A stretch of 41,999 nt of DNA. Source: Cyanobacteria bacterium QS_4_48_99. GTDB taxonomy: Bacteria > Cyanobacteriota > Cyanobacteriia > Cyanobacteriales > Rubidibacteraceae. The notes under the pieces were generated by a model, which was given only the letters and a program-made list of their open reading frames with translations, was not told the origin of the DNA and did not search any database. The stretch lies in contig PXPT01000045.1 of assembly GCA_003021505.1 (NCBI GenBank), forward strand, positions 1-41,999, read 5' to 3'. Every line of letters begins with the position of its first letter. The stretch's first letter is position 1. Positions 1,764-41,869 of this stretch are shown here, piece after piece. The position numbers and the translations under genes were made by a program.

Positions 1764-1793
1764 ATCTAATTTGAGGTTCTCAATTTCACCATA

Positions 1794-2501: not shown

Positions 2502-2528
2502 GGTACGAGTTAGGAGTTATTCGCTGAA

Positions 2529-3089: not shown

Positions 3090-4087
3090 TTGCCGCACGA
3101 GAGCGCTTATTTGCCCTACTAGACCGCTTTGATCAGGCAAAGGTGCTAGTTGTGGGTGACTTGGCACTAGATGAGTTTCTCACCGGTCAGGTAGAGCGGC
3201 TTTCTCGGGAGGCTCCTGTGTTAATTCTGCACCACGAGAACACTCGGCAAATCCCTGGTGGGGGGGCGAATGCGGTTTATAACCTGGCGAAGCTGGGAGC
3301 GCAAGTGAAGGTAGCCGGGTTGGTGGGAAAAGACCCTCAAGGAGAGGCACTGCGTAGCATCTTTGAGGCAGCCGGAATCGACACAGGGGGAATATTTATG
3401 GCGGCAGAGCGCCCCACGGTTACTAAAACCAGAATCGCGGGTCATGCTCGCCAATCCGTGACGCAACAAATTGTACGGGTAGACCGCACCTCGGAGCAGT
3501 TGCCAGACCAAGAGTTGCAAATGCAGCTTGCTGAGTATGTCCAGAGCGAGATAGCCACCTCAGACGCGGTGGTTTGCTCAGATTATGGTGATGGGGTGCT
3601 AATGCCATCTGTGATTTCGGTTGCGCTATCTCACTCACGGGCTGTTGTTGATGCTCAAAAGGGTCTAGAGCGGTATGCGGGGGCAACGCTGTTTACGCCC
3701 AACCTGCCAGAAGCAGAGCAAGCAGTGGGCTACGCGATTAGCGATTTTCAGTCTTTGGTCAAAGCCGGGCAAGACTTACTAAAGCTCACGCAAGCACAGC
3801 ACATTCTCATTACTCGGGGAGAAGAGGGAATGAGTTTGTTTGAGCGTTCGGGTGAGGTGCGTCATCTCCCTGCTTTTAACTACACGGATGTTTTTGATGT
3901 TACAGGAGCGGGAGATACGGTAGTGGCAACCCTAACGTTGAGCTTATGTGCTGGGGCATCGCTTTGGGAAGCAGCCGCTTTAGGGAATTTAGCTGCGAGT
4001 ATTGTGGTGCGTCAGTTTGGGACGGCAACGACAACCGCTACAGAAATTAAGGAGGCGTTGCAGATGCTATTAGATGAGGCTACTTGA
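3056..4087 (+). CDS. PfkB-family sugar kinase, HldE/RfaE kinase-domain type
   Basis: A 343-residue ribokinase-fold protein that most resembles the kinase half of HldE (D-glycero-beta-D-manno-heptose-7-phosphate kinase), which makes the ADP-heptose precursor of LPS core. Seen: the N-terminal VLVVGDLALDEFLTGQV strand, the GGGANAVYNLAKLG sugar-binding loop, SDYGDGV, and the PfkB signature DVTGAGDTVVAT with the catalytic base Asp at residue 287. There is no C-terminal nucleotidyltransferase (HldE cytidylyl) domain, so if it acts in the heptose pathway the adenylyltransferase is encoded elsewhere. The start ATG at 3056 lies within the end of the preceding chimeric frame. A related sugar kinase function cannot be excluded. 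Confidence 0.8.
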   Translation: MPESSTVTTELIAARERLFALLDRFDQAKVLVVGDLALDEFLTGQVERLSREAPVLILHHENTRQIPGGGANAVYNLAKLGAQVKVAGLVGKDPQGEALRSIFEAAGIDTGGIFMAAERPTVTKTRIAGHARQSVTQQIVRVDRTSEQLPDQELQMQLAEYVQSEIATSDAVVCSDYGDGVLMPSVISVALSHSRAVVDAQKGLERYAGATLFTPNLPEAEQAVGYAISDFQSLVKAGQDLLKLTQAQHILITRGEEGMSLFERSGEVRHLPAFNYTDVFDVTGAGDTVVATLTLSLCAGASLWEAAALGNLAASIVVRQFGTATTTATEIKEALQMLLDEAT

Positions 4088-21269: not shown

Positions 21270-22484
21270 ATAATAAATCTTACTTACCAAGATAAGCTTG
21301 AGCCCACTAAGGCACAGAGCCAGACAATGAGCGACTGGTTAGAAACTAGTCGTAAGGTCTGGAACTATGCCCTTGATGAGCGCAAGGATTGGTACAAGTC
21401 AAGATCGTGTCGGATAGACGCTTGCTCGATTAGGAGTGAGTATGTAATCCCTGCTGATACCCAACGTCCGAGTTACGTTAACCAGGCTAAAGCACTAACC
21501 GAAACTAAAAAGGCTAACCCAGACTTCAAGGCTGTCCAGTCTGCTGTACTGCAACAGGTACTCAAGCGACTAGAACACGCTTTCACTTCTATGTGGGAGC
21601 GTGGTTTCGGCTTTCCACGGTTTAAGAAGGCTGGACAATTCCGGTCGTTAACCTTTCCACAACTAGCAGACAACCCAGTGCAAGGGAATAGAATCAAAAT
21701 TCCTAAAATTGGACTGGTCAAGGTTCGCTGGTCACGACCTATCCCAGACGGTTTTGTAGTCAAGCAAGCCCAAATGGTTAGGAAAGCTTCGGGCTGGTAT
21801 GTGATGCTAACCCTACAGTGTGATGTTGACGTGCCATCGCCAACTGCTAAGGGTAATCCTATGGGGTTGGATGTTGGGCTTCAGTCTCTAGTAGCAACCT
21901 CTGACAAGGAGCTAATTCCAGCTCCTAAGTTTTTTTTAAGCCTCCCACGCAAGCTGCGATTGCTGCAAAAACGAGCCAGTAGAAAACAGAGGGGTTCAAG
22001 TAACTGGAAGAAGGCACAACACAGAGTTGCCAAACTACACGAGCATATAGCTAACTGTCGCCAGGATTTCTTCTACAAGCTTGCTCATCAGCTCTGTAAT
22101 AGGGCAGGAATGATCTTCGTAGAAGACCTAAACTTTCTCGCTTGGGCAAAAGGACTCTTCTCGAAGCATATGCTAGATGCCAGCTTTGGGGAGTTCTTTA
22201 GGATACTGGAGTGGATTTGCTGGAAACGAGACGTATTGTTCCTTAAGGTAGATGCTTCTCACACTAGCCAAATATGCCCAGAATGCGGCACTCACACAGG
22301 TAAAAAGGAACTATCTCAACGAGTTCACAAATGCCATGAGTGTGGGCACGAAGGCGATAGAGACGTGGCAGCATCTCAAATCGTAGCTCAACGCGGGCTT
22401 GCAGCGGTGGGACATACCGTCAAGATGCTTGATAAGGGGTTAAGCGTAAGCTCCCCTACGACCCAAGAATTCCACGCGCTTTAA
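21270..22484 (+). CDS. tnpB: TnpB RNA-guided nuclease
   Basis: The core frame runs from ATG 21327 to 22484 (385 residues). Homology continues upstream in frame (NLTYQDKLEPTKAQSQT) to codon 21270, which is ATA where the sister copy has ATG, so the original start seems mutated. Translation from 21327 removes about 19 N-terminal residues of the wedge/OBD region. All RuvC catalytic residues are present, numbered from 21327: Asp182 (GLDVG), Glu266 (VEDLNF) and Asp346 (DRDVAAS). The zinc finger is CPECG-CHECG. TnpB with its omega RNA cuts DNA next to a short target motif. Catalytic residues are intact, so activity depends on the start. Confidence 0.85.
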   Translation: MINLTYQDKLEPTKAQSQTMSDWLETSRKVWNYALDERKDWYKSRSCRIDACSIRSEYVIPADTQRPSYVNQAKALTETKKANPDFKAVQSAVLQQVLKRLEHAFTSMWERGFGFPRFKKAGQFRSLTFPQLADNPVQGNRIKIPKIGLVKVRWSRPIPDGFVVKQAQMVRKASGWYVMLTLQCDVDVPSPTAKGNPMGLDVGLQSLVATSDKELIPAPKFFLSLPRKLRLLQKRASRKQRGSSNWKKAQHRVAKLHEHIANCRQDFFYKLAHQLCNRAGMIFVEDLNFLAWAKGLFSKHMLDASFGEFFRILEWICWKRDVLFLKVDASHTSQICPECGTHTGKKELSQRVHKCHECGHEGDRDVAASQIVAQRGLAAVGHTVKMLDKGLSVSSPTTQEFHAL

Positions 22485-28635: not shown

Positions 28636-29760
28636 ATGAATGTTGCGGAATTTAATCAAAACAATAATTCCAACTCCATAACGTATACAAATTCGCCAGA
28701 CTACAGCGAAGCTACTCTGGAAGAAGTAGAATCAAAGCTAGTCGATGTTGCCTTATCAGGACAATCCGAAAATTTAGCGGAACTCCACCCATCTGGATAC
28801 AACAAAACTGAAACGGATGATACAGTCGGCGCATTTTTCAAAGAAATGGCACGCCATCCGCTGCTCAACCCAGAAGAAGAGGTGGAATTAGCGCATCGGG
28901 TTAAATTTTTCATGGATGTGGAGCGACATCGCAAAAGCCTGAGAGACACCCTCGAGTGCGAACCAACGAAGGCAGAGTTGGCTCAAGCCTTTTTCCTAAC
29001 AGAATCCCAGCTAGAAAATCATCTCTATAATGGGAAAATAGCGAAACGAAGAATGATTCGCTCTAACTTGCGGCTGGTAGTCTCGATAGCGAAACGCTAC
29101 CTCAACCGAGGCGTTCCTTTCTTGGATTTGATTCAGGAAGGTGCAATTGGCTTAAATCGCGCTGCGGAAAAGTTTGACCCTAACAAAGGATACAAGTTTT
29201 CCACCTATGCCTACTGGTGGATTCGTCAGGCAATTACCCGCACCATTGCCAACGATTCTCGCACCATTCGCCTGCCGATTCACATGGTTGAGAAGCTCAA
29301 CAAGCTTAAAAAAGCGCAGCGCAGTCTCAAGCAGAATTTGCAGCGCAATCCTAATGAGGCGGAACTTGCTGAGGAGTTGGATATTTCCCTGCCTCAGTTG
29401 CGCCAACTGCTCCAGTTGCGAAGACAATCGCTTTCTCTTAACCACCGGGTTGGTAAAGGAGAAGACACCGAACTGGTAGAACTGCTCGAAGACAAGGAAC
29501 TACAGTTGCCCGAGCAGCAGATGAACGAAGCGATGATGAATCAGGAAATCTCGAAGGTACTGAGTGAGGTTCTGAGCAAACGGGAAAAAGACGTAATTGC
29601 TTTGCGCTTCGGGTTAAACGCCAGTCAGCCCTATACCCTGGAACAAGTGGGAGCAACATTGAATCTTTCCCGCGAGCGAGTGCGTCAGATTCAAAGCAAA
29701 GCCATGCGCAAACTCCGCCGCCCTCAAGTTACCCAACGCCTCAAGGGCTGGTTGAATTAA
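28636..29760 (+). CDS. sigC: Group 2 RNA polymerase sigma factor, SigC-like
   Basis: A 374-residue sigma-70 family member. The order is region 1.2 (DTVGAFFKEMARHPLLNPEEEVELAHRV), 2.1-2.4 (IRSNLRLVVSIAKRYLNRGVPFLDLIQEGAIGLNRAAEKFD and YAYWWIRQAITRTIA, the -10 binding helix), region 3, and 4.2 with the helix-turn-helix (YTLEQVGATLNLSRERVRQIQ). It lacks the long N-terminal region 1.1 of the main SigA. The FFKEMARHPLL block is closest in my memory to cyanobacterial SigC, which acts in carbon/nitrogen and heat responses. The assignment among SigB/C/D/E is not certain. A hairpin terminator follows about 115 bp downstream. Confidence 0.85.
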   Translation: MNVAEFNQNNNSNSITYTNSPDYSEATLEEVESKLVDVALSGQSENLAELHPSGYNKTETDDTVGAFFKEMARHPLLNPEEEVELAHRVKFFMDVERHRKSLRDTLECEPTKAELAQAFFLTESQLENHLYNGKIAKRRMIRSNLRLVVSIAKRYLNRGVPFLDLIQEGAIGLNRAAEKFDPNKGYKFSTYAYWWIRQAITRTIANDSRTIRLPIHMVEKLNKLKKAQRSLKQNLQRNPNEAELAEELDISLPQLRQLLQLRRQSLSLNHRVGKGEDTELVELLEDKELQLPEQQMNEAMMNQEISKVLSEVLSKREKDVIALRFGLNASQPYTLEQVGATLNLSRERVRQIQSKAMRKLRRPQVTQRLKGWLN

Positions 29761-29903: not shown

Positions 29904-30249
29904 TCAATTCTATCTAACGACTCGAAGAGCGGATGAATTCGCTGTTGATAAAATCTAGCAAAGATAAATGGCTCCTAATTTGAAAATGAAGGCAAAGGGC
30001 AAATAGCAAATGGCCAAAGCGATTAGCCTTATTTGGCGTTAGCTTCGTTCAGACTGGATAAGCATTCTGTAGGTTCTTCAGTAATACGGAAGGTGAGAGT
30101 CTTTTTTTTGTGTGATTTTCTGCTATTTTAGTCGAAATAATACCGCGCTTGATTATCATTTGACTTAGCTTTGGAAAGTGGATTTCCGGCGTAGGTGGTT
30201 AAAAACTGTTATTTGCATGGCGCTGTTTTAGTTAAGAGGAGTGAAACGG
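29904..30249. other. Intergenic upstream of the hopanoid cluster
   Basis: About 345 bp with GGCAAAGGGCAAATAGCAAATGG-type low-complexity DNA (split here into short units) near 29992 and an AT-rich stretch near 30090-30160. GAGGAG (30236-30241) is the ribosome site of the next gene. No gene is seen. Confidence 0.5.
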
Positions 30250-31086
30250 ATGGATTCATATGGAGATGCTTTAGAAATCTTAAAACAAACGAGTCGGACG
30301 TTTTACATCCCGATTAGTCGTTTACCGGGAGGACTCCAGGAAGCAGTGGCATCCGCCTACCTGTGTATGCGTGCCATTGACGAAATTGAAGACCATCCTG
30401 ACCTTAATAACGCTGCCAAGGCAAGCCTGTTACATACAATCAGTTTAGAATTACAGGCAGCCGTAGAGGGCAACATTCTTAATGACTTATCAGTTGCCTT
30501 AACGACAGATGCCTTCACGACAGAGGAAACTTCTTTAGCAGAGGTAACAATTCGGATTGGAGAATGGGCACAACTAGCCCCTTCAACGATTTCTCCACGC
30601 ATTTGGGATGCCACATCGGCGATGGCAGATAGGATGGCTCATTGGGCTTTCTGCAACTGGGAAGTGAATACAGAAGCAGATTTAAATCGCTACACATTTG
30701 GAGTGGCTGGTGCTGTGGGATTGTTACTCTCGGATTTGTGGGCTTGGTACGACCATACGCAGACCAACCGTGCCCATGCGATTGGCTTTGGTCGGGGTTT
30801 ACAAGCCGTCAACATCCTCCGAAACCACAATGAAGACCTGGCACGGGGCGTAGACTTCTTTCCGAATGGCTGGAGTGCTGATAACATGCATACCTATGCC
30901 CGTCGCAATCTAGCACTGGCACACACCTACACTAATGCCCTCCCTGCTGGACCTGCTTTAGAGTTTTGCCAAATTCCGCTCACTTTGGCTGATGCAACGC
31001 TCGATGCTCTGGCTGATGGGCAAGAAAAACTTAGCCGTAGTGCGGTTTTAAGCCTAATTAAGCAGATGAATAGCGGCGAGCATTAA
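30250..31086 (+). CDS. Squalene/phytoene synthase-family protein
   Basis: A 278-residue trans-isoprenyl diphosphate synthase-fold protein started at ATG 30250, eight bases after GGAG (a GTG at 30241 is possible). Seen: SRTFYIPISRLPGGL (substrate pocket), the first Asp-rich motif AIDEIED, YTFGVAGAVGLLLSDLW, and the second motif region VNILRNHNEDLARGVDFFP. In squalene and phytoene synthases that second motif is normally D-x-x-E-D; here the first Asp is Asn. This variant is known in a bacterial subfamily of squalene/phytoene synthase-like proteins. It starts the hopanoid cluster, so a role in making squalene or another C30/C15 isoprenoid is likely. It is shorter than classical squalene synthase (about 350 residues). 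Confidence 0.75.
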   Translation: MDSYGDALEILKQTSRTFYIPISRLPGGLQEAVASAYLCMRAIDEIEDHPDLNNAAKASLLHTISLELQAAVEGNILNDLSVALTTDAFTTEETSLAEVTIRIGEWAQLAPSTISPRIWDATSAMADRMAHWAFCNWEVNTEADLNRYTFGVAGAVGLLLSDLWAWYDHTQTNRAHAIGFGRGLQAVNILRNHNEDLARGVDFFPNGWSADNMHTYARRNLALAHTYTNALPAGPALEFCQIPLTLADATLDALADGQEKLSRSAVLSLIKQMNSGEH

Positions 31087-31331
31087 GCTCATCCCCCACT
31101 TAAAGGGGATTTCGTGCTAATTGCTAATTGTTAATTGCCATGAGCAGTTAGCCATTAACGGTGGCGTAGTGACGTCCCCATCATATGAAAAAAGGAGCTT
31201 CCACGCCGCCTTGTTGGTGAATTTGATTGATGGCGGTTTGATGTCATTCCTTGCCCTTGTTTTCCATCCCAAGATCAAAAAAGCCCTACATCCCCCCATT
31301 ATGCCCTTCCGCAATTAGTTGGGGTGACGCG

Positions 31332-33314
31332 GTGATATTAGCTTTAGCACTCCTCCCTTTGAGCTTGGGCTTAGGTGGGTACGGATTGTATGAACCCCAT
31401 GAAGGTCACTTTGCTAGCGTTGCCCGCGAGATGGTGCTACGCGGGGACTGGGTGACACCCACTCTGAATGGCGCTCCCTATCTAAATAAGCCTCCACTTT
31501 TGTATTGGCTCAGTGCTACTGGTACAGCACTGTTAGGTTTCACAGAATATGCGGCGCGGTTGCCACTGGCGCTTTCCGGTTGGCTGGGAGCAGTGGTGGC
31601 TTGGAAATGGGCGCGAGAACTCTGGAATCCTGCCTCGGGGCGCATTGCTGCTTTGATGCTATGCGTTGCTTGTGGCTGGTTTATGTTTACCCACCAACTC
31701 TTAATTGATGTACTGCTGTCAACCCTGCTTTTAGCAACGTACTACTGTTTGTGGCGGTTGGCGTGGAATGGCGGCTGGGTTTACTTTTTTGCCCTGTATC
31801 TACTTTTGGGGTTGTGCGTACTAGCCAAAGGTCCCTTCATGCTCGCATTTCCATTGCTCGGTTGTGTGGGGTTAGCTCTCTCCAGGAGGAATAGGGAAAT
31901 CTTCAAAAAACTGCGCCCGGTGCTTGGAATAGTCGTTACTTCTCTGGTTGTTCTGCCCTGGGCGCTTGCGGTGGAAAAAGCTAACCCAGGCTTCCTCAGC
32001 TATTTTCTGTTCAACGAAAATCTTAAACGGATTGCTGACACCCGTTGGCCACCCGATTACGAAGTCTCGAAAGTTAGTGCTCTCGGTTATTTAGCAGTAA
32101 CAGCAGTCTGGTGTTTGCCTTGGACACTGGTCCTGCCGCAGGCAATCCGCTCGGCTTGGCAGGATTGGAAGCAGGGGAGCAGGGGGACAGCGGGGAAAGA
32201 GGACGCGGGGACACGGGGACGCGCGGACGCGGGGAGGATTGCTGAATTCAACAACTCTCCGCGTCTCCCCATCTCCGCGTCTACGCGTCAGGAGCAGAGC
32301 GACTCTCCTTATCCCCAATCCAAGGGCGTGTTGCTCTTAGTAATCGCCGCTGCTACGCCGATTCTCCTGTTTCTTCCTCTCTCCTCTCGTTTAGTTTACT
32401 ATAGTATTCCCAGTATTGCTCCTGTGGCAATTTTGTGCGCTGGTTGGTGGTCGCGCTGCCATCAGCGGCAACGACGAGAACGTATCCCTGCGGGAATGGG
32501 TTTCTGCTTGTTAGGGTTGGCTGCCTGTAGCGCGGCTTTCTGGGCACCGACCCTAGTCACGAGTTTACCGAAGGTCGCCCATGTTCCTAGTATAAGTTTG
32601 ATGACTAGGGCGATCGCACTTTTAGTTGGTAGTGGTTCTCTGATTGGGGGCATCTGGCTCTTACTCCTGCGTCCTCACCGCGCCTTAGCAGCAATTTTGC
32701 TCGGCTTCGTGGGCGCTTACCTGGTGACTAGCAATGGTTTTGCGGCTTTTCAAGATTTCCGCTCTTCCAAAACCCTGGTCGAAACTGCCCATCCTCACTT
32801 AGGAAATACCACCCTCTGGACTTTTGAAGGTTCACGAGAATTGGGGGCTGCTGGGGCGATGAGCTACTATTTGGATCGTCGGGGTCATGCTTTATCAGAG
32901 GTGGCAGGGGAAACGCGGAGACACGGAGACGCGGAGACGCGGAGACGCGGTAATACTCCTCACTCTCCCACTTCCCTCCCTCCCGGCTGGGCTAAAGGTC
33001 AACAGGACACTGCTTATCGGATAGTAATGGTGCTGACAGACGGAGAAAGAAATCGCCTTCCTCCCCAATTTCCTGGTCCTCAACCCGATTATGCGATTAC
33101 CCAAAGGGAACTTCAGGCGTATTGGGATAGTTCCCGTCCCGTGGTCTTTGTCACGGATTTCCTACGCCAGCCCAATGATTCCAGCGACCCGCCCGAGCTC
33201 AATTTACCTGATAACGCCGGCGAACCTTTGCTAGTGGTGGGACCGAGAAAACTTTATGGTAACCCAGCAGCGAGAGAACGCTTTCGTAGCTCGCGCCAGA
33301 GTGAGCAAAATTAA
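31332..33314 (+). CDS. ArnT-like membrane glycosyltransferase (GT39/GT83 family)
   Basis: A large integral membrane enzyme of about 660 residues. It should transfer a sugar from an undecaprenyl- or polyprenyl-phosphate carrier to an acceptor at the outer face of the membrane, as ArnT does with aminoarabinose. The frame opens at a TTG at 31251; GTG at 31332, just before the first helix AVILALALLPLSLGLGG, is a better start. The first loop YEPHEGHFASVAREM is the conserved acidic motif, DPDEGRYA in relatives, with changes at key positions. NGAPYLNKPPLLYWL and about 11 helices follow. Two low-complexity inserts (from repeats at 32165 and 32905) lie in loops. It lies between the synthase and HpnP, suggesting a hopanoid or related lipid acceptor. 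Confidence 0.75.
   Translation: MILALALLPLSLGLGGYGLYEPHEGHFASVAREMVLRGDWVTPTLNGAPYLNKPPLLYWLSATGTALLGFTEYAARLPLALSGWLGAVVAWKWARELWNPASGRIAALMLCVACGWFMFTHQLLIDVLLSTLLLATYYCLWRLAWNGGWVYFFALYLLLGLCVLAKGPFMLAFPLLGCVGLALSRRNREIFKKLRPVLGIVVTSLVVLPWALAVEKANPGFLSYFLFNENLKRIADTRWPPDYEVSKVSALGYLAVTAVWCLPWTLVLPQAIRSAWQDWKQGSRGTAGKEDAGTRGRADAGRIAEFNNSPRLPISASTRQEQSDSPYPQSKGVLLLVIAAATPILLFLPLSSRLVYYSIPSIAPVAILCAGWWSRCHQRQRRERIPAGMGFCLLGLAACSAAFWAPTLVTSLPKVAHVPSISLMTRAIALLVGSGSLIGGIWLLLLRPHRALAAILLGFVGAYLVTSNGFAAFQDFRSSKTLVETAHPHLGNTTLWTFEGSRELGAAGAMSYYLDRRGHALSEVAGETRRHGDAETRRRGNTPHSPTSLPPGWAKGQQDTAYRIVMVLTDGERNRLPPQFPGPQPDYAITQRELQAYWDSSRPVVFVTDFLRQPNDSSDPPELNLPDNAGEPLLVVGPRKLYGNPAARERFRSSRQSEQN
32165..32310. 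repeat. Palindromic GC-rich repeat inserted in-frame in the glycosyltransferase
   Basis: The top-strand half is rich in GGACGCGGGGACA units and the second half in CTCCGCGTCTCCCC, so the two can pair. It encodes a loop rich in Gly, Arg and Ser (KQGSRGTAGKEDAGTRGR and following) that conserved relatives lack. Same repeat type as 4130 and 16880. Confidence 0.7.
32905..32965. repeat. Second in-frame repeat insertion in the glycosyltransferase
   Basis: GCGGAGACACGGAGACGCGG units repeat and encode ETRRHGDAETRRRGN, a peptide that recurs in repeat-invaded cyanobacterial proteins. It lies in the C-terminal soluble part. Confidence 0.65.
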
Positions 33315-33395
33315 TCAAATGTCAAAAAAACTTGCGATCGCGACTAAACACCTCTTAGAGTATCAGAAAAACTCGCTGTGAGGAGATAATCCGGG

Positions 33396-35045
33396 ATGAG
33401 TGCTAGCCTAGAGGAGTTCGAGAAATCAACTTCAGAAAGTACGGCTGGGAGAACTCACTACACACCGCGCCACCACAAGCGCATTCTCTGCATCTTCCCT
33501 GAATATTCGCAATCATTTGGCACATTCCACCATGCCTACCCGCTGATGGGCAATGTCCGTGCCTTTATGCCACCTCAAGGCATTCTCGTTGTAGCTGCCT
33601 ATCTTCCCCAAGTATGGGAAGTTCGCTTTGTTGACGAGAATATAGAAGCCGCGAAACGGGTGGACTATCGCTGGGCAGATGCGGTGATTGTCAGTGGAAT
33701 GCACATCCAGCGCCCCCAGATTAATCGTATTAACTCACTCGCCCACCAAGAAGGCAAAATTACAGTTGTCGGTGGTCCCTCTGTCTCGGGGTGCCCAGAA
33801 TATTATCCAGACTTTGACATTCTGCACCTGGGAGAATTGGGGGACGCAACGGATGCGATGATTGAGTATCTCGATAGCCATACCGAACGTCCGGACGGGC
33901 AAATTCGCTTTCAAACCCAACAACGATTACCCCTCAACGAGTTTCCCACTCCCGCCTATGACTTGGTGAACCTCAATCAATATTTCCTCGCCAATATTCA
34001 GTTTTCCAGTGGTTGTCCCTTTCGCTGCGAGTTTTGCGATATTCCCGAGCTTTACGGGCGCAATCCCCGTTTGAAGGCTCCTGAGCAGATTTTAGCAGAG
34101 TTAGATGCCATGCTGGAAGCTGGTAATCCAGGCGCAGTCTATTTCGTCGATGATAACTTTGTCGGCAATCGCCGCGCGGCAATGGAGCTACTTCCTCACT
34201 TGATTGAGTGGCAAAAGCGCAATGGCTATCCTGTCCGGTTTGCTTGCGAAGCGACACTGAATCTTGCCCAGAGTCCCAAGCTGCTGGAGATGATGCGCCA
34301 AGCCTATTTTTGCACTGTTTTCTGTGGCATTGAAACGCCCGATTCTGAAGCTCTCCAAGCAATTTCTAAACAACAGAACCTCAGTATGCCCATTGTCGAA
34401 GCAGTGAAGGTTCTCAATAGCTACGGCATGGAAGTTGTTTCGGGAATCATTATGGGGCTAGACACAGATACCCCCGATACAGCAGAGCGCATTCTAGAAT
34501 TTATTCGTCAGTCTCAAATTCCCATGCTGACAATTAACTTGCTCCATGCGCTACCAGGGACACCTCTGTGGCGCAGGTTAGAACAGGAAGGGCGCTTAGT
34601 ATTCGATGAAAATCGTGATTCCAATGTCGAGTTTTTGATGCCCTACGAACAGGTAGTCGAGATGTGGCGGCGCTGCATCACTGCTGCCTATGAACCAGAA
34701 TTTTTGTATCAGCGATTTGCCTATAACAGGTTACATACCTACCCGAATCGGATTGAGGTTCCCAATAGTTCTGCCCGTACTTCTTGGGCGAATATTCGTA
34801 AAGGTTTAACGCTCATGACAAATATACTGCTGCGGGTAGGGGTATTCAGTCACTACCGCAAAACCTTCTGGAAATTTGCCAAGCCCGCCCTGAAAGCAGG
34901 CGACATTGAAGGTTTACTCAGCGTAGCGCTAGTCGCTCATCATCTGATTCGATTTACCGAGGAGTGCGCTACAGGCGAAGAAACTGCCTCGTTCTACTCT
35001 CAGAAGGTGCAAGGTGCTACACCTCAACCCTCTGAGGGAGGTTAA
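33396..35045 (+). CDS. hpnP: Hopanoid C-2 methylase HpnP (B12-binding radical SAM)
   Basis: HpnP adds the methyl group at C-2 of the hopanoid A ring, giving 2-methylhopanoids. The 549-residue protein follows the family closely: B12-binding-type N-terminal domain with ILCIFPEYSQSFGTFHHAYPL, FMPPQGILVVAAYLP, ADAVIVSGMHIQR, VVGGPSVSGCPEYYPDFD; then the radical SAM cluster CPFRCEFC (Cys 207, 211, 214), YGRNPRLKAPEQI, VYFVDDNFVGNR and GMEVVSGIIMGLDTDTPD. The match through the whole length is the strongest name in the cluster. ATG at 33396. A C-terminal extension beyond about residue 470 is usual. HpnJ follows 100 bp later on the same strand. Confidence 0.92.
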   Translation: MSASLEEFEKSTSESTAGRTHYTPRHHKRILCIFPEYSQSFGTFHHAYPLMGNVRAFMPPQGILVVAAYLPQVWEVRFVDENIEAAKRVDYRWADAVIVSGMHIQRPQINRINSLAHQEGKITVVGGPSVSGCPEYYPDFDILHLGELGDATDAMIEYLDSHTERPDGQIRFQTQQRLPLNEFPTPAYDLVNLNQYFLANIQFSSGCPFRCEFCDIPELYGRNPRLKAPEQILAELDAMLEAGNPGAVYFVDDNFVGNRRAAMELLPHLIEWQKRNGYPVRFACEATLNLAQSPKLLEMMRQAYFCTVFCGIETPDSEALQAISKQQNLSMPIVEAVKVLNSYGMEVVSGIIMGLDTDTPDTAERILEFIRQSQIPMLTINLLHALPGTPLWRRLEQEGRLVFDENRDSNVEFLMPYEQVVEMWRRCITAAYEPEFLYQRFAYNRLHTYPNRIEVPNSSARTSWANIRKGLTLMTNILLRVGVFSHYRKTFWKFAKPALKAGDIEGLLSVALVAHHLIRFTEECATGEETASFYSQKVQGATPQPSEGG

Positions 35046-35096
35046 AATCCCATCAATAAGGCAGAATTGACTCGGTTCAAGGCGTCGCCATTGTAG

Positions 35097-35116
35097 AGAC
35101 GCGAGCGATCGCGTCT
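35097..35116. repeat. Palindrome AGACGCGA-gcga-TCGCGTCT between hpnP and hpnJ
   Basis: A 20-bp stem-loop with a HIP1-like GCGATCGC overlap. It resembles the dispersed GTAGAGACGCG repeat found in cyanobacteria. It might modulate message stability between the two genes. Confidence 0.6.
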
Positions 35117-35146
35117 ATCACCAAGTAACATAGCAAAAGGAGAGAA

Positions 35147-36595
35147 ATGATGAAAAAAACGTTGTTCCTCAGTCCTCCCTCGTTTGATGGGTTTGACGGC
35201 GGTGCTGGTTCCCGATACCAGGCGACGCGCGAAATTACTTCCTTTTGGTATCCCACTTGGTTGGCGCAGCCTGCCGCACTCGTACCAGACAGTAAGCTGG
35301 TGGATGCCCCACCTCACGGTTTAACTGTCGAAGATGTGCTGAAAATTACCAAGGATTACGAACTGGTGATTATGCACACCAGCACGCCGTCTCTACCCAA
35401 TGACGTGAAGTGTGCTGAAGCGATTAAGGCGCAAAACCCGGAGGTGCAAATTGGCTTCATTGGGGCACATGTGGCTGTTCTGCCGGAGGCAACTCTAGAG
35501 GAGAACCCGATTATTGACTTCGCCTGTCGGCACGAATTTGACTACACCTGTAAAGAACTGGCAGAAGGTAAACCCTGGGATGAGATTAAAGGACTAAGCT
35601 ACCGTGACAAAAACGGCAAGTTGCACCATACCCCAGAACGCGAACTGATTCACGACTGGGATTCTATGCCCAGTGTCTTGCCGCGCTACGCCAGTGACCT
35701 CGACATTAACAAATACTACATTGGCTACTTGTTGCACCCTTATGTTTCTTTTTATACTGGGCGCGGCTGTCCGGCGAGATGTAGCTTTTGCCTCTGGCCC
35801 CAAACGATTGGCGGGCATCAGTATCGCACTAAAAGCCCAGAGATGGTGGGAAGGGAAATGGAAGAAGCCAAAGCGATTTTTGGTGATCGCGTACGCGAGT
35901 ATATGTTCGATGATGACACATTTACCATTGATAGGCAACGCGCGATCGCAATTAGCAAACACATGAAGCGGCTCAACCTCACTTGGAGTTGCAATGCCCG
36001 TGCCAACTTGGATTACGACACGCTGAAGCAATTGCGCGACAATGGTTTACGCTTACTACTGGTGGGCTTCGAGTCTGGCAATCAGGAAATTCTCGACCAC
36101 ATCAAAAAAGGCATTAAGCTAGAAAAAGCGCGAGAGTTTATGAAAAATTGCCGCAAACTGGGCATTACTGTCCACGGCACTTTCATGATTGGTTTGCCTG
36201 TCGAAACGCGCGAAACTATCGAGGAGACTATCCGCTTCGCCTGCGAAATCAATCCGCACACGATTCAAGTTTCCATCGCCGCGCCCTACCCAGGCACAGA
36301 ACTTTACGAACAGGCTCAAGCCAACGGCTGGTTTACCAGTGGTTCCCATGTTGCTGCCTCTGGTATTCAAACCGCCACGCTAGAATATCCCAATCTCTCC
36401 AGTGCAGACATCGAAGATGCAGTGGAGCGGATGTACCGCCAGTTCTACTTTCGTCCCAAAGCTATCCTACCAATTGTCCGAGAAATGGCCAGCGATCGCC
36501 AGATGCTAGTGCGTCGCCTTCGCGAGGGCAGGGAATTTTTCTCCTACTTGAAAAAACGCCGTACTCAAGCTACCTCTCTATCCACTGGAGGATGA
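35147..36595 (+). CDS. hpnJ: Hopanoid biosynthesis radical SAM protein HpnJ
   Basis: HpnJ acts late in hopanoid head-group synthesis; it is needed to convert bacteriohopanetetrol glucosamine into the cyclitol ether. The 482 residues start MMKKTLFLSPPSFDGFDGGAGSRYQ, the HpnJ signature, then a B12-binding-like domain and the radical SAM motif CPARCSFC (Cys 208, 212, 215), with FDDDTFTIDRQ and LLVGFESGNQEILDHIKKG. AGGAGAG before the ATG is a good ribosome site. It sits 100 bp after HpnP, and the pair is the usual core of methylated, cyclitol-bearing hopanoid clusters. Confidence 0.92.
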   Translation: MMKKTLFLSPPSFDGFDGGAGSRYQATREITSFWYPTWLAQPAALVPDSKLVDAPPHGLTVEDVLKITKDYELVIMHTSTPSLPNDVKCAEAIKAQNPEVQIGFIGAHVAVLPEATLEENPIIDFACRHEFDYTCKELAEGKPWDEIKGLSYRDKNGKLHHTPERELIHDWDSMPSVLPRYASDLDINKYYIGYLLHPYVSFYTGRGCPARCSFCLWPQTIGGHQYRTKSPEMVGREMEEAKAIFGDRVREYMFDDDTFTIDRQRAIAISKHMKRLNLTWSCNARANLDYDTLKQLRDNGLRLLLVGFESGNQEILDHIKKGIKLEKAREFMKNCRKLGITVHGTFMIGLPVETRETIEETIRFACEINPHTIQVSIAAPYPGTELYEQAQANGWFTSGSHVAASGIQTATLEYPNLSSADIEDAVERMYRQFYFRPKAILPIVREMASDRQMLVRRLREGREFFSYLKKRRTQATSLSTGG

Positions 36596-36747
36596 AGCAA
36601 ATGCAAAAATTTGTAAGACTCTAACTCTGACAAGGTTTAATTACCAGCCCAACAGAAAGCTGCAGCAATGCCGTCAGGCTTAACAGTTCGTCTCTATAGA
36701 GGCTTTGAGCTGACCAACGACAACGGTAGAAAAACCATGGTATCGCC

Positions 36748-37215
36748 GTGAAAAGTTTTATCGTCATTTCATTAATCGTCTTGTTTAAGGTCATAGGTGA
36801 TGTCAGTTTAAGCTATGGTCTCCAAGCAATGGACGAATTAGAGCTGCTCAACCCTATGGCTTTGCTTGCCTTCGGGCTTCAGACACTCCTAAACCCCTGG
36901 GTTATTCTGGGCATGGTATTTCTACTGAGCTACTCTCTTTTGTACCTCTGCTCGCTTTCATGGCTAGACCTCAGCTTTTTGATTCCGATGACTGCATCTG
37001 GCTACGTGCTACATGCTGTGTTCGCATGGCTGTTGCTCGGTGAGGAAATTGCTTCCACTAGGTGGGCAGGTACAGGCATAATTACGATTGGTGTCTTAGT
37101 TGTGGGCTGGGGCGGTCGTGAGAGAAGCGGGCGGAGAGCACTATTAAACTCGTTTATACGGCGAAAAACTAAAACACGAAACCGTCAAAAAGAAACTAAT
37201 CAACGGAAGAGGTGA
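36748..37215 (+). CDS. Half-size EamA (DMT) membrane transporter, copy 1
   Basis: A 155-residue protein with four helices (about residues 3-22, 34-46, 49-71, 78-98, 102-120), the size of one EamA repeat and of SMR/ArnE-type subunits. It starts at GTG 36748. Conserved features: DVSLSYGLQAM, a Pro-containing LSFLIPMTASGYVLHAVFAWLLLGEEI and ARWAGTGIITIGVLVVG, the typical C-terminal EamA pattern. The C-terminal tail is basic. Two half-size subunits make an ArnEF-like flippase in other systems, so with copy 2 it may flip a lipid-linked substrate for the nearby ArnT-like enzyme. Confidence 0.8.
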   Translation: MKSFIVISLIVLFKVIGDVSLSYGLQAMDELELLNPMALLAFGLQTLLNPWVILGMVFLLSYSLLYLCSLSWLDLSFLIPMTASGYVLHAVFAWLLLGEEIASTRWAGTGIITIGVLVVGWGGRERSGRRALLNSFIRRKTKTRNRQKETNQRKR

Positions 37216-37296
37216 CAAAACAATTAAACGATGCTCGCGCGTCGCAGTATTTCTGCGCGTCGGTTAAAAATTAAAAATTAGAAAGTGAGTGTGCAA

Positions 37297-37313
37297 GTAG
37301 GAGATGTTCCTAC
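37297..37313 (+). repeat. Small hairpin GTAGGA/TCCTAC in the gap before the second EamA gene
   Basis: A six-base stem (37297-37302 and 37308-37313) around a five-base loop with no T run. It lies in a 206-bp gap of otherwise repetitive DNA. Its role is unclear. Confidence 0.4.
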
Positions 37314-37421
37314 AGACATATCACGGTCGCGGGTTCATTCCGGAGGAGCTGTGTCCTGCTCAAAGCGGGTATAGGCACTCAAGAATTAAAAACTGAATTC
37401 GGAGCAAAGCGAGGAGGCACT

Positions 37422-37790
37422 ATGGGAGTTGGGATTATCGTTATCATGATGGTGCTTACGAACACTGCGGGAGCATTACTTGTATCTCGAGGAATGAAAC
37501 AAGTAGGTGAAATTTCCACGCTGCAACCCCGAGAGCTGTTAAAGATTTTCCGCCACGGCGTGCTGAAGAATTACCTGGTCATATTGGGTTTCTTGTCCCA
37601 AGTTTGCACGTTCTTTTTGTTTTTGGCTGCGCTGAACTTAGCTAATTTGAGTTGGGTAATCCCGATGGGTGCACTTGGTTATTTGGTCAGTGTATTAGGC
37701 GCGAAATTATTTCTCAAAGAGCAGTTTACAAAAGAGCGATGGATTGGAACTGTGATTATCGGCATTGGCGTTGTTTTAGTCTCGCTCTAA
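37422..37790 (+). CDS. Half-size EamA (DMT) membrane transporter, copy 2
   Basis: A 122-residue four-helix protein with the pattern VSRGMKQVGE, HGVLKNYLVILGFLSQVC, LANLSWVIPMGALGYLVSVLGAKLFLKEQF and RWIGTVIIGIGVVLVSL. The ATG at 37422 follows AGGAGG. It is a paralogue of copy 1 (37215 gap of 200 bp) and probably its heterodimer partner. Its stop is immediately followed by the stop of a minus-strand EamA gene (end 37791), so the two pairs face each other tail to tail. Confidence 0.8.
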   Translation: MGVGIIVIMMVLTNTAGALLVSRGMKQVGEISTLQPRELLKIFRHGVLKNYLVILGFLSQVCTFFLFLAALNLANLSWVIPMGALGYLVSVLGAKLFLKEQFTKERWIGTVIIGIGVVLVSL

Positions 37791-38198
37791 TCACCTAGTG
37801 TTTATCAGCCCGACAAGACCGACTACGACTACAGAGACGCCCACCCATCTCAGCAAAGTGACTCGCTCGCGAAGTATATATTGAGCCAAGATAGTCTCAA
37901 GGATGTAAGTAGATGCCATCAGAGGCACAACCATGGTGACAGCAGCTACTCGCATTGCCAGGAGATAGCCGCCAAAATGAACTGCCAAAACAGCAATGCC
38001 CAGCCACAGTTTCCAGTTATGGGTAATGCCCGACTGCTGGAGATACTGGAAAAGCGTGCGTGGATTGAGCAGTTTCTGGATACCGCCGAATGAGTCAGCA
38101 GTGGGACCACCAACCTTCATAGTTCCCTCTTTGATTAGAAAGTCCCCGACGACAGAGCCAATAATTGCTATAGCCATACCAATCGCGAAGTAAGCCAT
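37791..38198 (-). CDS. Half-size EamA (DMT) membrane transporter, copy 3
   Basis: Started at ATG 38198, where TAATG couples it to the upstream gene: its A is the last base of that gene's TAA. This gives 135 residues. Pattern: IGSVVGDFLIKEGTMKVGG, WLGIAVLAVHFGGYLLAMRVAAVTMVVPLMASTYILETILAQYILRERV and LRWVGVSVVVVGLVGL. The longer frame to 38264 adds non-conserved residues and is rejected. It forms a translationally coupled pair with copy 4. Confidence 0.82.
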   Translation of the reverse strand: MAYFAIGMAIAIIGSVVGDFLIKEGTMKVGGPTADSFGGIQKLLNPRTLFQYLQQSGITHNWKLWLGIAVLAVHFGGYLLAMRVAAVTMVVPLMASTYILETILAQYILRERVTLLRWVGVSVVVVGLVGLINTR

Positions 38199-38677
38199 TA
38201 ATCTTCCCCCCCGGTAAGTCCAATTATGGTGACACCGACCAAGATAACTACAATTGCCCCCCACCGCTCAAGTGTAACCTCCTCACCCAAAAAAGCCTGA
38301 GCTAGCAAAGCTGTGGCGACGTAGGTGCAAGCGCCCCGCATGGGCACCACAAAACTTAGTGGACCTAGGCGCAGGGCTTGTGCGAAAGTGACGAATTGGA
38401 TTAGGATTAGCACAATCGCTAGAATCAGCCAGACGTTTGTTAGCATATGCAGCGCTGCATCAGGAATATCGGAAAGGGAATTTACTGTAAAAGCCCTATC
38501 CCCGCTCACGCTGTACTTAATTAATACGTCTGCCGATGACGCTGTTATTACCACTAAAATGAAGGAAATAATAAAATTCCTACGCTTCCCGCGCGGGATT
38601 CCTCCGGTTCGCTGCGCTTCCTCTATGGGGTCGGCTGGCGAATGACCGTTATCTGATTGATTGCGTCGATTAGCCAT
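38198..38677 (-). CDS. Half-size EamA (DMT) membrane transporter, copy 4
   Basis: A 159-residue protein with a polar N-terminus of about 33 residues (rich in Arg/Asn, partly repeat-derived near the PRGKRR segment) and four helices: ISFILVVITASSADVLIKYSV, LTNVWLILAIVLILIQFVTFAQAL, LSFVVPMRGACTYVATALLAQAFLGEEV and RWGAIVVILVGVTIIGL. Together with copy 3 it forms a second half-transporter pair. The pattern ArnE/ArnF, two small subunits per flippase, is the closest functional precedent. Confidence 0.8.
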   Translation of the reverse strand: MANRRNQSDNGHSPADPIEEAQRTGGIPRGKRRNFIISFILVVITASSADVLIKYSVSGDRAFTVNSLSDIPDAALHMLTNVWLILAIVLILIQFVTFAQALRLGPLSFVVPMRGACTYVATALLAQAFLGEEVTLERWGAIVVILVGVTIIGLTGGED

Positions 38678-38809
38678 TAGCGAGAACCTTTTTCATGACC
38701 ATATGTGATGAGCTTTTAATCAGCATGACTCACCTAGATTAGCAATTCATATATCTAAAGTTAACTAAACAGTATTTTCAAGGTATTAAATGAGATGACT
38801 TTCCCCCCG

Positions 38810-38868
38810 TTAATGGCTAATGGTTAATCGCTAATGGCAATTCGCAATTAGCAATGAACAATTAGCAA
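38810..38868. repeat. TTAATGGCTAATGG-type tandem low-complexity repeat
   Basis: Short units of TAATGG, AATCGCTAATGGC and CAATTAGCAATGAACAATTAGC between the EamA pair and the carbamoyltransferase; inverted TAATTGC/GCAATTA units can pair. This is the common cyanobacterial intergenic repeat type. Confidence 0.6.
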
Positions 38869-38882
38869 GGGATTTAAAAAAT

Positions 38883-40568
38883 ATGGTCTACACCTTGGGA
38901 GTAATTTGTCATGGAACCCATGATGCAGCAGCAGTTCTGCTCGAAGATGGTCAGGTAGTGGCAAGCGCTGAGGAAGAACGCTTTTCTCGCAAAAAGTTTG
39001 ATAATCGCTTTCCGGCACAAGCGATTGAATTTTGTTTAGCAAAAGCGGGAATTACTTCTCAAGAACTTTCAGCGATTGGTTATGGGTTCGACCCCAGGCG
39101 AAAGGTAGGATTGAAGGCGCTATATGTCCTCAAACACTTTCCCCAGTCTGTGGAAATGGTAGTCAATGGGGTACCAATAGCACGGCGAATGAATGGCATC
39201 GAACAGGATTTTCGAGAGCATCTGGGCTACACAGGTTCGGTGTATCGCCTCAATCATCATCTCTGCCATGCTGCCAGCACATTCCTGGCCTCTCCTTTTG
39301 AAGAGGCTGCCGTTCTCGCCCTTGATTGTATGGGAGATTGGGAGTCTTGCTGGTGGGGTTTAGGTAAGGGCCACCATATTAGCGAGCTAGAAGTGACGGA
39401 TTGGCCCCAGTCCCTAGGATTGGTGTACATGACTTTCACTGATTACTTGGGCTTCCAACCTTTATCTGATGAATATAAGGTGATGGGTTTAGCTTCCTAT
39501 GGTGAACCGCGCTACATCGAGCAGATGCAAGAAATCTTTTGGGCAACGCCTCAAAGCTACCAGCTTAACCTGGACTACTTTAACCTTAAACTTCAGCCCA
39601 CTCCCCCTTTATATAGCCAAAAACTAGTAGAGCGCTTTGGTCGGGCTTTAAGCAAGTTTGACCACTCTATCCCCCAATATTACCGAGATATTGCCGCCTC
39701 CCTGCAAGCTCAACTAGAACAAGTGATTTTTCACCTGGTTAAGAAAGTCGTTGCCACAACAGGCAGCCGCAACCTCTGTTTAGCAGGCGGTGTTGCCATG
39801 AACTCGGCTGCCAACGGTAAGATTCCAACTCGAGGGTTAGTCGATGCGCTCTATGTTCCCCCTTGTGCCGCTGACCCTGGTGTTGCTCTAGGGGCAGCCT
39901 ATCTCGCTTACCAAGCCACTACGGGCAAGCCTCAGCGCCAAGTGTTAGACACGGCGTTGCTGGGACCAGAATATAACGACGAGCAAATTCTAGTAGCAAT
40001 TCAACATCGCGGGCTGCAAGCACATCCTCTCAGCAACCCCTCTCAGCAAGCAGCGAAACTGTTAACCGAAAGCAAGGTGGTGGGGTGGTTTCAGGGGCGC
40101 ATGGAATTTGGTCAACGCGCTTTGGGGGCACGCTCAATTTTAGCTGACCCGCGATTAGCAGAAATGAAGGATATTGTCAATAAAAAAATTAAGTTTCGGG
40201 AGGGCTTTCGTCCGTTTGCCCCTTCTGTTTTGGAAGAATCTGTGGCGGAATACTTCCACTACGATGCACCTGTGCCGTTTATGACGCAGGTTTATCCGGT
40301 GCGCGAGGAAAAACAGGCAAAAATCCCAGCAGTAACTCATGTAGACGGAACTGCCAGAGTGCAAACGGTTTCCATCTCAGCTAATCCCCGATACTGGCAC
40401 TTGATTGATGCCTTTTATAAACTAACGGGGGTTCCGGTAGTTTTGAATACTTCCTTTAATGTTAAGGGTCAACCAATTGTAAACACACCCGCAGAAGCCC
40501 TAGACACATTCTTGAACACGGAAATGGATGCTCTTGTCTGTGGCGGCTATCTCGTTGTGAAAGATTAA
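38883..40568 (+). CDS. Carbamoyltransferase, NodU/CmcH family
   Basis: This family uses carbamoyl phosphate and ATP to place a carbamoyl group on a hydroxyl or amine of a sugar or antibiotic through a carbamoyl-adenylate. The 561 residues show the N-terminal ASKHA/Kae1-like domain (GVICHGTHDAAAVLLEDGQVVASAEEERFSRKKFDNRFP; metal His in NHHLCHAAS; GGVAMNSAANGK) and the YrdC-like C-terminal domain from about residue 370 (GRMEFGQRALGARSILADPR, FRPFAPSVLEE, TSFNVKGQPIVNTP). All are intact. It stands between the EamA pair and HpnI inside the hopanoid cluster. Carbamoylated bacteriohopanetetrols are known natural products, so a hopanoid hydroxyl is the likely acceptor. That target is inferred from location only. 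Confidence 0.85.
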   Translation: MVYTLGVICHGTHDAAAVLLEDGQVVASAEEERFSRKKFDNRFPAQAIEFCLAKAGITSQELSAIGYGFDPRRKVGLKALYVLKHFPQSVEMVVNGVPIARRMNGIEQDFREHLGYTGSVYRLNHHLCHAASTFLASPFEEAAVLALDCMGDWESCWWGLGKGHHISELEVTDWPQSLGLVYMTFTDYLGFQPLSDEYKVMGLASYGEPRYIEQMQEIFWATPQSYQLNLDYFNLKLQPTPPLYSQKLVERFGRALSKFDHSIPQYYRDIAASLQAQLEQVIFHLVKKVVATTGSRNLCLAGGVAMNSAANGKIPTRGLVDALYVPPCAADPGVALGAAYLAYQATTGKPQRQVLDTALLGPEYNDEQILVAIQHRGLQAHPLSNPSQQAAKLLTESKVVGWFQGRMEFGQRALGARSILADPRLAEMKDIVNKKIKFREGFRPFAPSVLEESVAEYFHYDAPVPFMTQVYPVREEKQAKIPAVTHVDGTARVQTVSISANPRYWHLIDAFYKLTGVPVVLNTSFNVKGQPIVNTPAEALDTFLNTEMDALVCGGYLVVKD

Positions 40569-40642
40569 AAACTATAGACCTAGCACATCTTTTGTCAGGG
40601 TTCGTATGATTTTGGTGCAGGGATAGATATATATTAATCCCT

Positions 40643-41869
40643 ATGATGACGTATTTGCACCAACTACTAATTTCCTTAAAAGACCCTGGATTTTATTTTC
40701 TACTCTTACTTGTGATCTTGTGCTTATCGGCAATTTGGTATTATTTTTACACAATTTATGCAGCGATCGCATTTTTCTCCCATTCCACACCCAACAACTC
40801 CGAGTTCCACCCGCCTGTTACTATCCTCAAGCCCATTTGCGGTCTCGACCTCGATACCTACGAAAACTTCGCCTCCTTCTGCCAACAAGATTACCCAGAG
40901 TACCAAATCATCTTCGGTGTGCGCGACGCGCAAGACCCCTGTGTGGAAGTTGTCAAAAAACTAATCCATAACTTCCCAGAAACTGATATTCGTCTGGTGG
41001 TGAGCGATGAGGCAATTGGCACTAATCTTAAAGTTAGCAATCTTGCCCATGCCTATGCCCATGCCAAGTATTCCATCTTGCTCCTTGCCGATAGCGATAT
41101 CCGCGTCGGTTCAGATTATTTGAAGCGAATTGTCCAGCCCATGCGTGACCCAGACGTTGGTGTTGTCACCTGCCTTTACCGTCCACTAGTGCGAGGATGG
41201 GTAGCAATCCTAGAAGCAGTCGGGATTTCTACGGACTACCATGCAGGCGTTTTCGCTGCCAGAAAACTAGAGGGAATGAAGTTTGCCCTGGGACCAACCA
41301 TTGCCATTCGCAAAACTGCGCTCGAAGCGATCGGCGGATTTGCGGCAATTGCCGATTATTTGGCGGATGACTACCAACTTGGCTACCAGCCCACCCAAGC
41401 AGGCTATCAGGTCGTGCTGTCCGACTACATTATCGATCACGTCATTAGAACAGAAAGCCTGAGCGATTTAATCCATCGTCAGATTCGCTGGGCTTACTGT
41501 GGTCGAGTCTCTCGACCTGGGAGCTATCTCGGTCTCATTTTTACCCAAGGCATAGCCGCCAGTTTATTATTGTTGATAGTAACTCGCGGAGCGCTTTTAG
41601 CCTGGGTAGTTGCTGGTGTCACCTGGATGGCGAGATTAGCAATGGGCTGGGTGGTGGGAGTCAGCAGGCTTGGCGACCCGGTGGCAAAAAAGTTTCTATG
41701 GCTTATCCCGATTAGTGACCTCATCGGCTTGGCGCTTTGGTGCTACAGCTTGTTTGGCAACACCATTAATTGGCGCGGCAGGCAACTGAGGCTAGTTGAA
41801 GACGGTAAGCTAGTGCCCATCGCCACCGATTCGGTAACAGAATCTCAGTATCCTGATTCTCGAAAATGA
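40643..41869 (+). CDS. hpnI: Hopanoid glycosyltransferase HpnI
   Basis: HpnI transfers N-acetylglucosamine to bacteriohopanetetrol, the first step of the head-group pathway that continues with HpnK and HpnJ. The 408-residue protein has an N-terminal membrane helix (about 17-44), then a GT2/GT21 fold like ceramide glucosyltransferase: VTILKPICGLDLDTYENFASFCQQDYPEYQ, GVRDAQDP, ADSD (Asp 150, 152, the metal-binding DxD type), YLADDYQLG, and the product-binding Q-x-x-R-W as HRQIRWAY. The C-terminal membrane helices follow. It is 75 bp after the carbamoyltransferase, same strand. The name is from the family pattern and the neighbours HpnP and HpnJ. Confidence 0.88.
   Translation: MMTYLHQLLISLKDPGFYFLLLLVILCLSAIWYYFYTIYAAIAFFSHSTPNNSEFHPPVTILKPICGLDLDTYENFASFCQQDYPEYQIIFGVRDAQDPCVEVVKKLIHNFPETDIRLVVSDEAIGTNLKVSNLAHAYAHAKYSILLLADSDIRVGSDYLKRIVQPMRDPDVGVVTCLYRPLVRGWVAILEAVGISTDYHAGVFAARKLEGMKFALGPTIAIRKTALEAIGGFAAIADYLADDYQLGYQPTQAGYQVVLSDYIIDHVIRTESLSDLIHRQIRWAYCGRVSRPGSYLGLIFTQGIAASLLLLIVTRGALLAWVVAGVTWMARLAMGWVVGVSRLGDPVAKKFLWLIPISDLIGLALWCYSLFGNTINWRGRQLRLVEDGKLVPIATDSVTESQYPDSRK

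Follow-up and report, generated by a model that had tools for sequence, protein, structure and literature searches.

A probable hopanoid tailoring locus of recurring modules and one private insertion in a 2-methylhopanoid-competent cyanobacterium

The window analysed here, a stretch of 41,999 nucleotides from Cyanobacteria bacterium QS_4_48_99, contains a ten-gene cluster that we read, with a probability of roughly 0.7, as a locus for hopanoid tailoring in a cyanobacterium competent to make 2-methylhopanoids, composed of separately recurring modules and one private insertion. The recurring modules are a divergent squalene synthase, an ArnT-like GT-C glycosyltransferase together with HpnP, and HpnJ together with a split EamA transporter and HpnI. 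Most of the genes that look unexpected in such a cluster recur by hopanoid genes in other genomes, and they point to overlooked steps of transport and sugar addition; the textbook set of HpnA-HpnO does not cover all of the cyanobacterial genes. For times earlier than 750 million years ago, a case has been made for 2-methylhopanes as markers of cyanobacteria (PMC10697835). Little is known about the synthesis, transport and decoration of their parent lipids in these organisms.

Organization of the locus

The window is one entire contig (C45) of a 3.62-Mb genome that is 99.9% complete and comprises 196 contigs, and 130 bp remain 3′ of HpnI before the contig ends. All named genes are intact open reading frames at the positions first assigned to them, and the locus spans 30241-41869. 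The plus strand carries, in this order, the squalene-synthase-family gene, the ArnT-like PMT_2 gene, HpnP, HpnJ, Eam1 and Eam2; these are followed by Eam3 and Eam4 on the minus strand and then, again on the plus strand, by a NodU-type carbamoyltransferase (CarbT) and HpnI. Since scans for promoters (12 found, 12.6 expected) and terminators (16 found, 13.5 expected) were at chance level, operon limits are set by spacing only. The comparison with other genomes covered the neighbourhoods of HpnJ (31 genomes) and HpnP (20 genomes), each of at most 20 kb, as well as the loci of relatives of the squalene synthase and the ArnT-like gene. The HpnJ set comprises 32 cyanobacterial genomes including that of the window, and 28 of these fall within a set of 282 genomes of the class. 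Outside the locus, the window also harbors an IS605-type OrfB/TnpB-like transposase gene (21327-22484).

HpnJ, HpnI and the absence of HpnK

HpnJ (35147-36595, plus strand), the radical SAM enzyme of bacteriohopanetetrol (BHT) cyclitol ether formation, scores 799 bits against an equivalog cut-off of 577.6 (NCBIfam TIGR03471), and the HpnI-family glycosyltransferase (GT21-like; 40643-41869, plus strand) scores 360 bits against a cut-off of 310 (TIGR03472), such that the recognition of both by the first-pass annotation holds by curated standards. Squalene-hopene cyclase (SHC) is encoded elsewhere in the genome (C173, 921 bits), as is HpnH (C166, 564 bits), which lies next to an HpnA-like gene. 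SHC is present in 137 of the 282 genomes of the class and in 28/28 HpnJ genomes of this set (p=3e-10). Together, SHC and HpnH would provide hopene, adenosylhopane and, through further steps, the bacteriohopanepolyol (BHP) scaffold.

A search with TIGR03473 at E≤1e-3 found no HpnK in this 99.9% complete genome of 196 contigs, and HpnK is also absent from five other near-complete HpnJ genomes (G107, G007, G020, G089 and G258). With HpnJ and HpnI present and HpnK missing, the standard cyclitol-ether route is thus incomplete. In a tree, HpnI proteins form two clades, one of which adjoins HpnK, while the genes of the other, clade A, which includes HpnI of the window, lie mostly by EamA, by HpnJ or by a family of putative di-iron proteins that we call c6. 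All placeable HpnI proteins of the HpnK-less genomes belong to clade A. There are two exceptions, G014 and G135, where HpnI of the window's type occurs together with HpnK, and the link between clade and HpnK is therefore not absolute. Clade-A HpnI would add a sugar at the cytoplasmic face, which HpnJ would then remodel to a cyclitol; as HpnK is missing, either another deacetylase may act or the sugar may not be N-acetylated. Five clusters (L014, L024, L027, L032 and L033) carry two HpnI paralogs, one by HpnK and the other by EamA or c6, suggesting that the paired paralogs perform two different sugar-transfer steps.

The c6 proteins, of 285-293 amino acids, are encoded in many cyanobacterial loci, where their genes lie between HpnI, HpnJ and HpnK (e.g., L018 3772-4638; L034 10815-11678; L170 10488-11351; L165-L168). 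They have no Pfam or NCBIfam match, but their conserved EExRH and EEARH motifs form a ferritin-like di-iron signature, which makes the family a candidate hopanoid oxygenase or desaturase.

One of the closest known systems is the composite hpnI-hpnK-hpnJ cluster of alphaproteobacteria for BHT glucosamine and BHT cyclitol ether, where the three genes are nearly always present or absent as a set (PMC12583986). HpnI, HpnJ, HpnH and SHC are shared with it, whereas the genome studied here lacks HpnK, adds an EamA pair and the squalene-synthase-like gene, and has its HpnI in the clade that is not paired with HpnK. BHT cyclitol ether, BHT glucosamine and forms with a guanidine substituent are all produced by cyanobacteria (PMC5642901), and hence unexplained head-group chemistry exists in this group.

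A split EamA transporter linked to HpnJ

The four half-size EamA genes proposed earlier are indeed present as intact open reading frames, though their matches to Pfam EamA (PF00892, gathering threshold 28.2) are weak (24-36 bits): Eam2 reaches 35.6 bits, Eam1, Eam3 and Eam4 reach 24-26, and a fused homolog reaches 45.4. The two pairs differ in their distribution. EamA genes adjoin HpnJ, HpnI or HpnK in 14/32 HpnJ genomes, which span six families, and occur there either as a pair of half genes (the window, L015, L020, L029, L167 and L168) or as a single fused gene of 277-316 codons (L013, L014, L018, L019, L022, L027, L165 and L166). In the tree, Eam1 (36748-37215, plus strand) groups with the N-terminal halves and Eam2 (37422-37790, plus strand) with the C-terminal halves of the fused homologs beside HpnJ and HpnI, which indicates that Eam1 and Eam2 are one EamA/ArnE-F-like transporter in two pieces. 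The module of HpnJ, split or fused EamA and HpnI is found in L013, L014, L015, L018-L020, L022, L027 and L029, and an HpnK-Eam-HpnI arrangement in L165-L168. Around the HpnJ, HpnP, squalene-synthase and ArnT genes of other genomes, in contrast, Eam3 and Eam4 were not seen next to hpn genes.

The substrate of Eam1/Eam2 is not readable from the sequence. Their ArnE/F homology and linkage suggest that they may carry the headed lipid, or a lipid-linked sugar donor, across the membrane; the recurring pair provides a specific candidate for moving hopanoids across the inner membrane.

An ArnT-like glycosyltransferase that travels with HpnP

The gene between the squalene-synthase-like gene and HpnP (31251-33314, plus strand) encodes a PMT_2 protein (65.7 bits) that matches the solved ArnT structure 5ezm with E=5.7e-24. 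Its score of 141 bits is far under the ArnT equivalog cut-off of 567, and by sequence the transferase is a member of the GT-C/PMT_2 family and not ArnT (the L-Ara4N transferase) itself. It belongs to a hopanoid-associated clade: orthologs occur in 9/282 genomes, and all nine have SHC (hypergeometric p=0.0013, uncorrected for kinship). In five of the six genomes having both genes (G000, G020, G080, G256 and G242), the ArnT-like gene directly precedes HpnP on the same strand; in G242, it is broken across two contigs, and one small open reading frame separates it from HpnP. Three further genomes (G022, G184 and G198) have SHC and an ArnT-like ortholog without HpnP. The earlier expectation that the transferase recurs beside hopanoid genes thus holds for HpnP, but not for HpnJ.

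An HpnP ortholog is common to the cyanobacterial C-2 methylation loci, for which HpnP and squalene cyclase were not syntenic in a published survey (PMC10697835), whereas the ArnT-like gene directly 5′ of HpnP is a feature that the window shares only with G020, G080, G242 and G256. Among the papers we searched, none described an hpn-linked ArnT or an hpn-linked carbamoyltransferase. The arn operon, with ArnT and the flippase ArnE/ArnF, likewise unites a PMT_2 transferase and paired small membrane proteins of the ArnE/F kind, but no Ara4N synthesis genes were seen among the genes of the cluster, which is linked to hpn genes and whose proteins score far below the ArnE, ArnF and ArnT equivalog cut-offs. 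On the basis of ArnT homology and linkage, the transferase may transfer a sugar at the outer face, drawing on a polyprenyl-phosphate donor; given its position by HpnP, it is a candidate enzyme for a glycosylation coupled to 2-methylation.

The ArnT-like gene of the window carries in-frame low-complexity cyanobacterial repeats of the GGAGACGCGG type (about 32183-32290 and 32913-32950) that its orthologs lack. Two TAATTGC-type cyanobacterial repeats, one 5′ of the ArnT-like gene (31115-31164) and the other in the divergent intergenic region between Eam4 and CarbT (38804-38868), are inverted relative to each other and lie on either side of the segment that runs from ArnT to Eam4; rearrangement of the locus could have been aided by them.

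CarbT and the Eam3/Eam4 pair

Eam3 (37791-38198, minus strand), an ArnE-like half-size EamA protein (NCBIfam ArnE 24.9 bits, below cut-off), and its partner Eam4 (38198-38677, minus strand; PF00892 24 bits, below gathering) form a second pair. The start of Eam3 is probably at 38198, overlapping the Eam4 stop, while the first-start reading frame extends to 38264. We considered whether Eam3/Eam4 are a duplicate of the HpnJ-linked pair and rejected this, as the two branch together and apart from that pair (SH-aLRT 85, long branches). CarbT (38883-40568, plus strand) has both carbamoyltransferase domains over cut-off (PF16861 245 bits, PF02543 198 bits) and is a full-length homolog of the NodU/TobZ O-carbamoyltransferases (TobZ, GdmN and the novobiocin carbamoyltransferase), matching TobZ with E=3e-97 and with the HHxxHA, QGR, RALG and LNTSFN active-site regions conserved. 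Its gene context differs from theirs, and its identity to the nearest genomic relatives is about 46%. In L015 and L020, HpnJ, Eam1, Eam2 and HpnI are contiguous, so that Eam3, Eam4 and CarbT look like a cassette inserted between Eam2 and HpnI.

This raises the question whether two unrelated loci simply abut here, namely a hopanoid operon, which would comprise the genes from the squalene-synthase-like one to Eam2 as well as HpnI, and a cassette for envelope polysaccharide or lipid sugars, made up of Eam3/Eam4 and CarbT, whose products would never act on hopanoids. The distribution of CarbT speaks for such a separation: it is absent from the eight other genomes of the family that were searched, the closest proteins within the order have at most 47% identity, and the best 80 loci among 84,980 genomes, with 37-46% identity, contain no convincing hpn gene, only a few weak matches to radical SAM and other proteins. 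CarbT was likewise found in none of the HpnJ, HpnP or squalene-synthase neighbourhoods of other genomes, its nearest cyanobacterial relatives adjoin dTDP-sugar or EPS-type genes, and Eam3/Eam4 run in the opposite direction, the divergent region between Eam4 and CarbT containing repeats. However, CarbT lies 75 bp 5′ of HpnI on the same strand, and the two are therefore probably co-transcribed; moreover, the GC content of all genes of the locus is alike (0.44-0.54) and bears no mark of recent foreign origin, and carbamoyl bacteriohopanepolyols exist in alphaproteobacteria (PMC12583986). We consider the odds of two abutting loci to be about even.

At the other extreme, all ten genes could serve a single product, namely a 2-methyl bacteriohopanepolyol with a carbamoyl group and two sugars that both EamA pairs would flip. 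The tight clustering of the genes, the recurrence of the EamA and ArnT-like modules with hpn genes and the TobZ-type conserved regions kept in CarbT would fit such a product, but neither CarbT nor Eam3/Eam4 recurs beside hpn genes, and the ArnT-like gene tracks HpnP rather than HpnJ/HpnI, which makes the single product rather unlikely. Similarly, it seems doubtful to us that there is a cyanobacterial branch of head-group synthesis in which a dedicated EamA flippase pair and an ArnT-like outer-face transferase act on 2-methyl BHPs and in which, in this strain, the head group is also carbamoylated and formed independently of HpnK.

The reading we favor is a tailoring locus with a private insertion. 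The first-pass annotation had proposed an assembly line from isoprenoid synthesis through C-2 methylation, sugar and cyclitol chemistry and carbamoylation to flipping and outer-face glycosylation. The genes were grouped correctly, and part of the assembly line stands: a locus for C-2 methylation and head-group synthesis is well supported, as are, in terms of gene content, the steps from squalene supply to EamA transport, and the Eam1/Eam2 and ArnT-like genes recur. The idea is weakest with respect to carbamoylation, because CarbT and the second EamA pair recur beside hopanoid genes at none of the loci examined. Outer-face glycosylation and carbamoylation may nonetheless take place in this strain. 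The TobZ-type regions of CarbT, its place by HpnI and the carbamoyl bacteriohopanepolyols of alphaproteobacteria make carbamoylation of hopanoids possible, whereas the comparison of genomes does not support it, and the target of the inserted cassette may or may not be a hopanoid.

A short squalene-synthase-like protein with an asparagine signature

The first gene of the locus (30241-31086, plus strand) encodes a short squalene-synthase-family protein of 281 amino acids (SQS-like; PF00494 93.5 bits) that reaches only 76 bits against the cut-off of 287 of the NCBIfam model squal_synth (TIGR01559). Its first Asp motif, DxxED, is intact (DEIED) and conserved in all members covering that region. 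The second motif reads NILRN..ED in 26/26 aligned proteins, where CrtB and canonical squalene synthases have Asp (NILRD/NILKD). Besides CrtB, the short form is the only protein of the SQS_PSY family in the genome. Among the 32 HpnJ genomes, CrtB is present in every one (as fragments only in the incomplete G285), along with exactly one further squalene synthase, which is canonical (361-366 amino acids) in 7/32 and short in 25/32; the two are mutually exclusive in 32/32 genomes, and the short form occurs in SHC-positive genomes of six families. It lies beside HpnJ in 13 genomes, including that of the window, where two genes lie between; elsewhere it is beside HpnH (e.g., G119, G015, G135 and G204), HpnK (L152) or HpnP (L136 and L137).

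Two squalene synthase variants among hopanoid-producing cyanobacteria were noted in a pan-genome study (PMC5862535). They are two ortholog groups of the same family and, like the short form, co-occur with SHC. New here are the mutual exclusivity of short and canonical forms, the invariant Asn and the clustering of the short form with hpn genes. From its status as sole candidate, we infer that the short form makes squalene and may supply it in place of a canonical squalene synthase or HpnCDE.

The conserved change from Asp to Asn in the first position of the second Asp-rich motif could mean that the SQS-like protein is perhaps no squalene synthase, and that its role is instead regulatory or lies in a new kind of prenyl coupling during head-group synthesis, a reading to which its frequent position beside HpnJ might also point. 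We regard this as distinctly improbable, given that the short form is the sole non-CrtB member of the family in SHC-positive genomes of six families, that it is strictly exclusive with the canonical enzyme, and that squalene synthase variants are on record for hopanoid cyanobacteria. The Asn-type protein scores far under the curated squalene synthase cut-off and would thus be missed when hopanoid producers are predicted with it.

Genomes of family f26 contain, as a third member, a weakly matching relative of squalene/phytoene synthases with 345-392 amino acids and 36-58 bits (e.g., G135:C1:3131837-3132088 and G170:C22:55098-55880). Just 5′ of the SQS-like gene, the window carries a gene for a group-2-type sigma factor (28636-29760). 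A gene of this type likewise lies just 5′ of the squalene synthase gene in G007 (L137 12162-13313), and related sigma factors are found near HpnJ in L023 and L036; the scores are too low for an ortholog call.

HpnP

HpnP (33396-35045, plus strand), the predicted hopanoid C-2 methyltransferase, has the B12-binding, radical SAM and DUF4070 domains that make up the HpnP domain set (PMC10697835), with CxxxCxxC present, and it is the sole DUF4070 protein of the genome. Homologs of the protein fall sharply into two groups by identity, one of 68-79% that occurs in about 64 genomes and another of about 36-42% that most of the genomes in the class contain, and SHC is found in 62/64 genomes of the HpnP clade as compared to 137/282 overall. 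The best match in plasmid records is from Methylobacterium bullatum (55% identity over 97% of the query), followed by Acaryochloris and others with less than 38% identity. Since many cyanobacteria carry, in addition to HpnP, an uncharacterised HpnP-like protein with all three domains (PMC10697835), and since no NCBIfam HpnP model is matched by the protein, one might ask whether the locus is unrelated to C-2 methylation, but the bimodal identities, the SHC co-occurrence and a tree that places the protein with a cyanobacterial clade and Methylobacterium, on a 100/100 branch from four HpnP-like outgroups, make this very improbable, and we rejected the paralog identity. By its domains and its place in the tree, the protein is HpnP, as had been recognised at first reading, and its orthology implies that it would methylate C-2.

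A sign of the loss of HpnP may be seen in G249, where the gene is directly 5′ of HpnJ but broken into two frames (L019, about 1594-3240). Other HpnJ genomes of the same genus are without an intact HpnP, as if the gene were decaying in this genus.
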